DNA of 8,514 nucleotides, from positions 1 through 8,514 of the forward strand of contig CASDUB010000088.1 of NCBI GenBank assembly GCA_949283905.1, in the 5' to 3' direction. Shown here in pieces: positions 1 to 1,290 of the stretch. This DNA comes from an uncultured Lachnospiraceae bacterium. GTDB taxonomy: Bacteria; Bacillota; Clostridia; Lachnospirales; Lachnospiraceae. The notes under the pieces were generated by a model. The model saw only the letters and a program-made list of their open reading frames with translations. It made no database searches and was not told the DNA's origin. A program made the translations under genes and the position numbers. Each line of letters opens with the position of its first letter. Within the stretch, counting starts at the first letter, position 1.

Positions 1-1119
1 ACACGTATCAAAGCAGCCCTCCCAACTATCAATAAACTTCTTTCAGAGGGAGCAAAAGTAATCCTCTGTTCACATCTCGGAAAAGTTAAGAACGGACCGA
101 ACGAGAAAGAGTCTCTCGCTCCTGTTGCGGTAAGACTTGCCGAGAAACTCGGAAGACCTGTTAATTTTGTAGCTGATTACCATGTAACGGGCGAAGCTGC
201 TACAAAAGCGGTTAACGAGATGAAAGACGGAGATGTAGTTCTTCTTCAGAACACACGTTTCCGCGGCGCTGAAGAGACAAAGAACGGCGAAGAGTTCTCG
301 AAAGAACTTGCTGATCTTGCCGACGATTATGTATGCGATGCTTTCGGATCTTCACACAGAGCGCACGCATCAGTTGCAGGCGTAACAAAATACATTTCTG
401 CAAAAGGCGGAAGCAATGTAGTCGGATACCTTATGCAGAAAGAGATCGCTTTCCTTGGAAACGCAGTAGAAAATCCTGTACGTCCGTTTGTAGCGATCCT
501 CGGCGGAGCAAAAGTTGCCGATAAACTCAATGTTATCAACAACCTCCTTGAAAAATGCGATACGCTTATCATCGGCGGCGGAATGGCTTACACATTCCTT
601 AAAGCACAGGGCAAAGAGATCGGAAAATCAATGCTTGATGAGTCAAAGATCGATTACTGCAAAGAGATGATGGAAAAAGCTGAAAAGCTTGGCAAAAAAC
701 TTCTTCTTCCTATCGATACAACAGTTGTATCTGATTTCCCTGATCCTATCGACGCAAAAGTTGATGTTGAAATAGTTCCTTCAGATGCTATTCCTGCTGA
801 CAAAGAAGGACTTGATATCGGAACAGCAACAGCTAAACTTTATGCAGACGCTGTTAAAGAAGCTAAAACAGTCGTATGGAACGGACCTATGGGCGTATTT
901 GAGAATCCGACGCTTGCAGCCGGAACACTTGCGGTAGCAAAAGCAATGGCAGAAACAGACGCTACTACTATCATCGGAGGCGGTGATTCAGCGGCAGCCG
1001 TAAATCAGATGGGTCTGGCAGACAAGATGAGCCATATTTCAACAGGCGGCGGCGCTTCTCTCGAATTCCTTGAGGGAAAAGAGCTTCCGGGCGTTGCGGC
1101 AGCAGATGACAAATTATAA
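1..1119 (+). CDS. pgk: Phosphoglycerate kinase, 5'-truncated by window start
   Basis: Cytoplasmic glycolytic enzyme that transfers the acyl phosphate of 1,3-bisphosphoglycerate to ADP, giving 3-phosphoglycerate and ATP. The frame is open from base 1 (first codons read TRIKAALPTI) to the TAA at 1117-1119, giving 372 residues. Bacterial PGK is about 390-415 residues and this stretch normally begins near residue 36-38, so roughly the first 36 residues lie upstream. Visible motifs (window residue numbers): SHLGK at 24-28 (usually SHLGR), NTRF at 84-87, DAFGSSHRAHAS at 113-124, GGAKVADK at 168-175, the nucleotide-binding GPMGVFE at 295-301, GGGDSAAA at 326-333 and GGGAS at 349-353. The ATG at 220 is internal and is not the start. 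Ile is almost always ATC here (one ATA seen at 772), unlike the genes after 2190, which suggests high expression. tpiA follows after a structured RNA element. Identity is near certain; only the N-terminus is unseen. Confidence 0.97.
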   Translation, partial: TRIKAALPTINKLLSEGAKVILCSHLGKVKNGPNEKESLAPVAVRLAEKLGRPVNFVADYHVTGEAATKAVNEMKDGDVVLLQNTRFRGAEETKNGEEFSKELADLADDYVCDAFGSSHRAHASVAGVTKYISAKGGSNVVGYLMQKEIAFLGNAVENPVRPFVAILGGAKVADKLNVINNLLEKCDTLIIGGGMAYTFLKAQGKEIGKSMLDESKIDYCKEMMEKAEKLGKKLLLPIDTTVVSDFPDPIDAKVDVEIVPSDAIPADKEGLDIGTATAKLYADAVKEAKTVVWNGPMGVFENPTLAAGTLAVAKAMAETDATTIIGGGDSAAAVNQMGLADKMSHISTGGGASLEFLEGKELPGVAAADDKL

Positions 1120-1290
1120 TGATACTAAGCTCGAAAAGCCATCATCCGATTGTGCTTGCACAAAGGAGGATGTATGGCCTTGAGAGCTGAACAAACATGA
1201 GAAATAAGCCATTTTTCTACGAAAAATGAGCGATTTCGAATGGTTGTAGTATTGCGAGAATGCGAAGCATGGAGCAATACGTAGCATCAT
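1119..1290 (+). ncRNA. Structured RNA between pgk and tpiA (candidate PGK RNA motif)
   Basis: Seen by eye: a four-way junction of about 172 nt. Closing stem 1119-1127 with 1282-1290 (8 pairs, one A-C mismatch). Arm 1 (1128-1188): 1128-1132/1184-1188, 1135-1136/1180-1181, 1138-1142/1174-1178, bulged T1173, 1143-1147/1168-1172, 1150-1154/1159-1163, CTTG tetraloop. Arm 2 (1191-1247): 1191-1194/1244-1247, 1196-1198/1240-1242, 1201-1205/1233-1237, 1208-1209/1230-1231, 1210-1217/1221-1228, loop TAC. Arm 3 (1249-1280): 1249-1255/1274-1280 and 1260-1263/1267-1270, loop GAA. GA opposes GA in four internal loops. Sheared G-A pairs form only on the + strand; the complement would give UC/UC. From memory, a predicted 'PGK RNA motif' from gut metagenomes lies between pgk and tpiA. 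The name therefore rests on context and recollection, not on a covariance-model search. It could act in cis on tpiA or pgk mRNA, or be a processed RNA; function is unknown. Confidence 0.7.

Follow-up and report, generated by a model that had tools for sequence, protein, structure and literature searches.

The Clostridiales-1 RNA between pgk and tpiA is one copy of a dispersed, MITE-like repeat that often abuts stop codons in Lachnospiraceae

Why should two neighboring glycolytic genes be separated by a compact, highly structured RNA, and what might that RNA do there? We addressed this question in a window of 8,514 nt, the whole stretch of DNA from an uncultured Lachnospiraceae bacterium that was analyzed, whose genes are pgk, tpiA, priA, def, fmt, rsmB (5905-7263, with TTG as its apparent start codon) and rlmN. 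An earlier note, made by reading the sequence alone, had described a compact four-way junction at 1119-1290, and RNA folding bore this out. The 172 nt form a cloverleaf of a closing stem and three arms with 62 pairs and a minimum free energy (MFE) of -60.9 kcal/mol, leaving 1189-1190, 1248 and 1281 unpaired at the junction as claimed, and none of 200 dinucleotide shuffles folded equally well (z = -6.86). The reverse strand of this copy is nearly equal to the plus strand (-60.4), and DNA energy parameters yield nearly the same shape. The element begins immediately 3′ of the pgk stop codon, with an in-frame TGA at 1120-1122 (Table 1). A consensus scan of 900-2250 revealed neither an intrinsic terminator nor a promoter-like site in the pgk-tpiA interval, and no terminator-like site 3′ of the element; the closest upstream promoter-like match on the same strand lies within pgk (946-974). 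A single transcript probably spans pgk, the element and tpiA.

Table 1 Features of the window around the pgk-tpiA spacer, in window coordinates.
Feature	Position	Strand	Basis
pgk, 5′ end beyond the window	1..1119	+	ORF; NCBIfam PRK13962 positions 36-393; stop TAA 1117-1119
Clostridiales-1 core form, RF01699 model 1-166 of 166	1120..1289	+	cmscan 116.8 bits, E 8.2e-27, gathering cut-off 48; whole-genome search, G000:C88:1120-1289
P1 closing stem, 5′ strand	1119..1127	+	Fold; begins on the third base of the pgk stop codon; 1119-1123 pair with 1286-1290, 1125-1127 with 1282-1284
P1 closing stem, 3′ strand	1282..1290	+	Fold
Arm P2, variable stem, CUUG loop cap at 1155-1158	1128..1188	+	Fold
Arm P3, conserved strands CATGAG ... 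CGAATG	1191..1247	+	Fold and conserved columns
Arm P4, GTATTGC-GAGA-ATGC-GAA-GCAT-GGA-GCAATAC	1249..1280	+	Fold
tpiA, same direction as pgk	1339..2091	+	TIGR00419, 186.9 bits

A cmscan search with 4227 Rfam families assigned the element over its full length to RF01699, Clostridiales-1, well above the cut-off (Table 1), and a permissive scan of 1000-1400 returned other families only at E 3.3 or worse. Clostridiales-1 was described in 2010 by Weinberg et al., the accessible part of whose paper enters it in a row reading ‘y n n’ for ‘Clostridiales, human gut’, the first column being ‘RNA?’ (PMC2864571). In Rfam, RF01699 has the type ‘Gene; sRNA’. The second and third columns of that row we take to be cis-regulatory and switch. 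This assignment lends no support to the PGK RNA motif that the earlier note had proposed; Rfam may lack a motif under the PGK name, and the literature searched holds no mention of a ‘PGK RNA motif’. The note’s broader description, that of a four-way-junction RNA of an orphan class, stands: the element is conserved and covarying, and RF01699 is an orphan family of gut Clostridiales.

Clostridiales-1 turned out to be a dispersed sequence. The window’s own genome (G000; 1.79 Mb, 83% complete) contains 20 RF01699 matches, 18 of them above the cut-off, and matches occur in 29 of the 61 genomes searched (own included), above the cut-off in 23, with a maximum of 36 per genome. Homologous elements, whose absence from related genomes the earlier note had named as counting against its reading, are present in them. 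The hosts are numerous within the window’s own family and include a few genomes from the wider order; none of 14 control genomes gave a match. Several contigs of two genomes (G033 and G008) begin just before or inside a copy, with the terminal repeat near base 1, so that match counts there are likely low. For comparative analysis we used 138 copies, namely 18 from the own genome, excluding the two matches below the cut-off (L019, L020), and 120 of the matches listed for relatives, a non-random sample of the best-scoring ones. A right-end pattern, allowing up to 3-4 mismatches, divided them into 97 core and 41 full copies, a classing under which worn full copies may be counted as core. In the literature searched, which left most subscription papers outside, we found nothing that already describes RF01699 or Clostridiales-1 as a MITE or documents repeats of this kind in Lachnospiraceae.

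Next, we asked whether the element is a regular part of the pgk-tpiA spacer. In the nearest genome found (G003; pgk DNA 91.5% identical, TpiA 98%), the spacer is short and lacks the element, and among the tpiA loci retrieved, those of G001-G006, G008, L021 and L023 show no RF01699 match above the cut-off. The wider survey took the best 80 of more tpiA loci, with L047, L056, L072, L090 and L093 omitted upstream and the upstream ORF confirmed as pgk in part of the loci; 31 loci were scanned with Rfam, comprising the 28 with a spacer longer than 100 nt plus L050, L021 and L023. An element lies between pgk and tpiA in five of these 31, in sense orientation in L038, L051, L066 and L073 and antisense in L028; the copy of L050 is at another location. 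Relative to the pgk stop codon, the starts of the four sense copies range from 5 nt before it to 2 nt after it, the model start of L051 and L066 falling within the last pgk codon ahead of the stop; the antisense core lies 28 nt past the pgk stop, with its outer end ~9 nt past it. This scattered presence, together with differing stem sequences, suggests repeated arrival at pgk, with loss as a possible alternative and with L051 and L066 probably representing a single event. Because the spacer of the nearest relative lacks the element, the window copy is probably young and may be neutral; recent arrival seems a better account than loss in the relative.

Two further features of these spacers were observed. 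In the Butyrivibrio loci L051 and L066 (around 4818-4830), the last residues encoded by pgk are DDRA; the window, L038, L073 and L028 have DDK near the end instead. In these two loci GAGCG immediately before the stop codon TAA can pair with CGCTC at the 3′ end of the element, and the gene end fits the stem. By eye, unrelated-looking palindromic repeats occupy the pre-tpiA spacers of L026, L033, L041, L042, L045, L049, L064, L074 and others, and the eight named spacers gave no Rfam match above the cut-off. In several Lachnospiraceae the pre-tpiA spacer looks as if it were a favored landing site.

Placement directly after a stop codon is a recurrent feature of core copies. A co-directional stop codon lies within 4 nt of the element’s 5′ end in 35 of the 97 core copies; the mirrored arrangement, an opposing stop codon at most 4 nt from the 3′ end, served as control and occurs in 5 of 97 (p = 1.4 × 10⁻⁶); within 15 nt the counts are 48 sense and 11 mirrored. 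These counts used ORFs of at least 90 codons, or at least 60 where the ORF ran off the retrieved sequence. For randomly chosen non-coding positions in the flanks, docking is expected in ~6% of cases. Among 40 copies fetched after the pattern had been noticed, 35 were core copies and gave 11 versus 1 (p = 0.006). The stop codon lies partly or wholly within the element in 17 of the 35 docked core copies and ends directly before it in nine. The window copy, with TAA at 1117-1119 and the element from 1120, conforms to this pattern. Full copies showed no significant sense excess (9 versus 3 of 41, p = 0.15), and in G033 (35 matches) docking was seen in none of 15 core copies and one of eight full copies.

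By eye and by count, the closing stems vary from site to site yet re-pair, as in TAAAAAT/ATTTTTA, CGTATAA/TTATACG and ACTAAGC/GCTTAGT. Pairing continues outward past the model ends for 1.60 contiguous pairs in core copies at stop codons versus 0.52 expected (0 of 20000 permutations), for 1.72 versus 0.85 in other core copies, and hardly in full copies (1.07 versus 0.90). Since the extension is equally common in core copies away from stop codons, it is not special to docking. We also considered truncation by an in-frame TGA as the origin of docking; this is unlikely, because many of the proteins encoded upstream extend to the last positions of their NCBIfam profiles (for example L003, L010, L017, L157, L197). 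The protein abutted in L183 ends short of its profile. Comparison of L016 with L186 revealed one docked orthologue in which part of the structure has been lost.

A second P1 3′ strand was observed within 170 nt downstream in 15 of 92 core copies (L194, L157, L199, L116, L235, L112 and nine others) and in none of 41 full copies; in the copies read by eye, such as L194, L157, L199 and L116, it is accompanied by a P4-like arm. Either of the two 3′ strands could serve as partner for the one 5′ strand at the stop codon. L194 (G003, after argS) has two 3′ strands and its orthologue L010 only one.

Which genes do docked copies follow? We queried the upstream proteins of 30 of the 42 core copies with a stop codon at -6 to +5, using at most the last 250 aa; as these are partial proteins, hits fall mostly under the curated cut-offs. 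The NCBIfam hits include GroEL and ArgS (two genomes each), HtpG, DnaK, thioredoxin, Pgk and GyrB, as well as aspartate kinase, YchF, galactokinase, MgtE, CODH/ACS and glycyl-radical enzymes, with no hit at 1e-15 for 4 of the 30. Relative to the remaining ORFs at their loci, the abutted genes have a lower Nc and so a stronger codon bias (30 genes; mean z of Nc -0.59, one-sided p = 0.0024), and all eight abutted genes of the own genome lie below its mean Nc. Gene identity and codon bias, a pattern noticed after the fact, suggest that the abutted genes encode abundant proteins.

In many copies the sequence continues past the Rfam 3′ end as a hairpin, at whose far end the left terminus recurs in inverted orientation. 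The terminal repeats read TGATRCCAGGGTCAAAAG on the left and TGATGTTGGGGTCAAAAG inward from the right, and TGAGCCAAGGGACAAATG and TGAGTTGCCCGACAAATG in G009. Target duplications were counted in the first 98 copies, using the full copies with both flanks (35 of 36, L195 having no left flank). An exact 5-bp duplication flanks 18 of the 35, against 0.71 expected when flanks were swapped between copies; of the remainder, seven have one mismatch, six have two and four have four. Duplications of 3, 4 or 7-10 bp were absent, 6 bp occurred twice, and 2 bp occurred 11 times versus 9.2 expected. With inverted terminal repeats and a fixed 5-bp duplication, the full form is MITE-like, and the full copies probably moved as a non-autonomous transposon. 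Because an exact 5-bp duplication was seen in none of 61 core-only copies, and the window copy has neither a target duplication nor the right-hand extension, we infer past transposition, for the core form above all, and that of the window copy from the family. Clostridiales-1 is a known family that is newly seen here as a mobile, stop-codon-docking repeat.

An autonomous partner was sought by eye as inverted terminal-repeat pairs 1-4 kb apart among the matches listed for 10 genomes, which left out G008, G036, G057 and most of G014, then for G008, G014 and G013, and none was found; the two candidates retrieved, in G033 and G013, proved to be neighboring insertions flanking ordinary-looking host genes. 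Likewise, none of the families rve, DDE_Tnp_1, Y1_Tnp and Transposase_mut was common to all of 5-6 partly incomplete genomes, and none of 28 fetched transposase loci (L297-L324, four families) was bracketed by the terminal repeats. The Y1 transposase PF01797 was found in neither G000 (83% complete) nor G008 (94% complete) and 1-8 times in four other genomes. At L313 (G033:C29), beside L136, a copy adjoins a Y1-type transposase match with one in-frame TGA, probably by chance. G033 also contains a 473-bp pair of terminal ends and two mini-forms (L204 953-1022, 70 bp; L206 522-598, 77 bp) with both terminal repeats and little beyond the P2 hairpin; L204 has TATTT at either side. Four copies in G035 (L118, L240, L241 and L242) have similar ends; their closing stem is another one, AAAGCCC/GGGCTTT, and the hairpin of their 3′ extension differs as well. 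They perhaps form a second subfamily with ends of its own.

We then examined whether the structure is maintained as RNA or as DNA. Covariation, which the earlier note had called to be tested, is extensive: 23 of 24 consensus pairs show two-sided changes across 45 diverse copies. The rows were aligned by sequence with MAFFT and the structure was derived from them with RNAalifold, the closing stem lying outside the 24 pairs. Standard pairs fill 95.5% of cells versus 74.1% in shuffled controls and 26.5-44.9% when partners are slid, the slid control leaning in the consensus’s favor because the structure comes from the same rows. Two-sided changes affect 9 of 10 counted pairs in P3; the two counted helices of P4 are paired in 99.4-99.6% of cells; and the stem of P2 covaries beneath a conserved apical GCTTGC. 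The strands of the internal loops and the GCUUGC cap are conserved across copies. The plus strand folds better than its complement in 133 of 138 copies, and DNA energy parameters likewise favor it (97 of 98 copies).

The types of pairs and changes point in another direction. G-U makes up 2.8% of MFE pairs, compared with 6.5% in 30 SAM riboswitches of relatives and 14% in dinucleotide shuffles, and the ratio of G-U to A-C cells is 36:12 in 82 copies versus 31:2 in the 30 SAM riboswitches. Two-sided changes outnumber one-sided ones by 6-28:1, versus 2.3:1 in SAM riboswitches. Scarce G-U and the two-sided excess hint at DNA-level upkeep of palindromes, for example by arm-to-arm template switching, rather than RNA selection, and the excess weakens covariation as proof of RNA function. 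Sense docking, plus-strand folding, the conserved loops and cap, and covariation argue for use at the RNA level. Palindromes homogenized as DNA, with sense copies used as RNA, would accommodate both sets of observations.

The reading that we favor, with a probability of about one half, is that the dispersed-repeat core copy at 1120-1289 likely acts in cis in the pgk message, blocking 3′-to-5′ decay and favoring pgk over tpiA. Core copies would come to sit at stop codons by targeting or by selection, and the transcript would then fold into the four-arm structure with its base seated on the stop codon. Its most probable effect, similar to that of REP elements, would be to block 3′-to-5′ exonucleases, protecting the upstream cistron and lowering the downstream one; at the window site, pgk would be shielded and its output favored over that of tpiA. 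Within this model, selection seems a better candidate than targeted insertion for the cause of docking, and an exonuclease barrier a better one than an effect on terminating ribosomes. Judged from sequence, the window copy is probably a young, likely cis-acting 3′-UTR insert and not a metabolic sensor. Of the suggestions in the earlier note, the one that suits this site best is still that the RNA sets the pgk:tpiA ratio through mRNA stability or processing; the element would then be a mobile repeat with one of its docking sites at pgk-tpiA rather than a regulator dedicated to pgk. A more general proposal is tentative, possible rather than probable: that a stop-codon-docking element is kept, or lands, in sense at the ends of highly expressed genes, re-pairs its closing helix with the gene end and serves as a portable 3′-UTR that tunes termination and decay across Lachnospiraceae.

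The strongest competitor to a cis-acting 3′-UTR insert is a neutral selfish element, whose fold serves transposition as hairpin DNA and leaves the host unaffected, docking being the least harmful insertion. This is possible but on balance doubtful: it accommodates the 5-bp target duplications of the full form, the few G-U pairs and mostly two-sided changes, the plus-strand preference under DNA parameters (97 of 98 copies), the missing copy in the nearest relative and the lack of docking in G033, but least harm alone leaves unexplained both the sense excess of 35 versus 5 and the bias to strongly codon-biased genes. The main mechanistic rival places the action on the terminating ribosome, a stem at or over the stop codon slowing termination or causing tmRNA tagging and so lowering the output of the upstream gene. 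Docked distances of 0-4 nt do fall within the 15-nt limit given for REPs in the accessible part of PMC12306157, and in 17 of the 35 docked core copies the element covers all or part of the stop codon; docked genes resemble those for abundant proteins, however, which would be an odd site for a repressor, and we consider this mechanism unlikely.

Despite a compact junction between two glycolytic genes, it is very improbable that the element is the PGK motif or that it senses a glycolytic metabolite, as a riboswitch or otherwise, to control tpiA: the own genome has 20 matches, copies follow unrelated genes, a pgk-tpiA match is absent from G001-G006 and G008, Rfam assigns RF01699 alone, and the row seen in Weinberg et al. 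reads ‘y n n’. The RF01699 match and the element-free pgk-tpiA of the closest relative led us to disfavor the PGK motif and riboswitch, and with them the glycolytic-state sensor of the earlier note; a consistent riboswitch-type 5′ UTR before one pathway was not seen, as copies lie in all gene orientations and after unrelated genes (downstream genes unnamed). An independent trans-acting sRNA with its own promoter, which the Rfam type ‘Gene; sRNA’ would suggest, is just as improbable, as the nearest upstream promoter-like match of the consensus scan is inside pgk (946-974), no terminator-like site follows the element, and an upstream stop codon lies within 4 nt in 35 of 97 core copies.

These results give an orphan Rfam family a testable role, for which every natural docked site is a ready experiment. 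They also show that covariation can lead to a ‘structured RNA’ that is in fact a mobile DNA repeat, whose palindromes may covary for reasons at the DNA level. Should docked copies act on messages, a single element family would account for 3′-UTR structure on pgk, groEL, dnaK and other genes of Lachnospiraceae from gut and rumen.

How does this repeat compare with known systems? The closest is Clostridiales-1 itself, with the same cloverleaf and a model matched in whole by the window copy; as far as its accessible record goes (RF01699, PMC2864571), it is an sRNA gene with no function named. In our analysis its copies are dispersed and of two kinds, a longer full form that resembles a transposon and a stop-docked core form. 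ERIC and RU-1, RU-2 and RU-3 are bacterial MITEs or small mobile repeats. Like them, Clostridiales-1 is short, apparently non-coding and multicopy, with inverted terminal repeats and, in its full form, 5-bp duplications; unlike them, it has an internal four-arm fold, conserved loops and a strand preference, a core form without right end or duplication, and no autonomous partner among the families tried. For the small mobile repeats compared here, we drew on the accessible parts of PMC2759123 and PMC2229807. The likeness to REP/BIME sequences lies in copies shortly after stop codons. REP elements block 3′-to-5′ exonucleases and protect the upstream cistron, and tmRNA tagging is reported to occur at E. 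coli REPs close to stop codons. The accessible part of PMC12306157 reports that E. coli REPs at most 15 nt from a stop codon stall ribosomes and lower translation. Compared with the one hairpin of REP/BIME, Clostridiales-1 has four arms and often a stop codon within its stem. Neither the window’s genome nor G008 yielded a match to the Y1 transposase family, the partner of REPs. In integron attC sites, structure is conserved more than sequence, the sites lie in sense directly after ORFs, and it is the folded single strand that matters. Clostridiales-1 resembles them in all three respects, namely structure conserved over sequence, sense placement after ORFs and a folded single strand, but follows housekeeping genes rather than cassettes.
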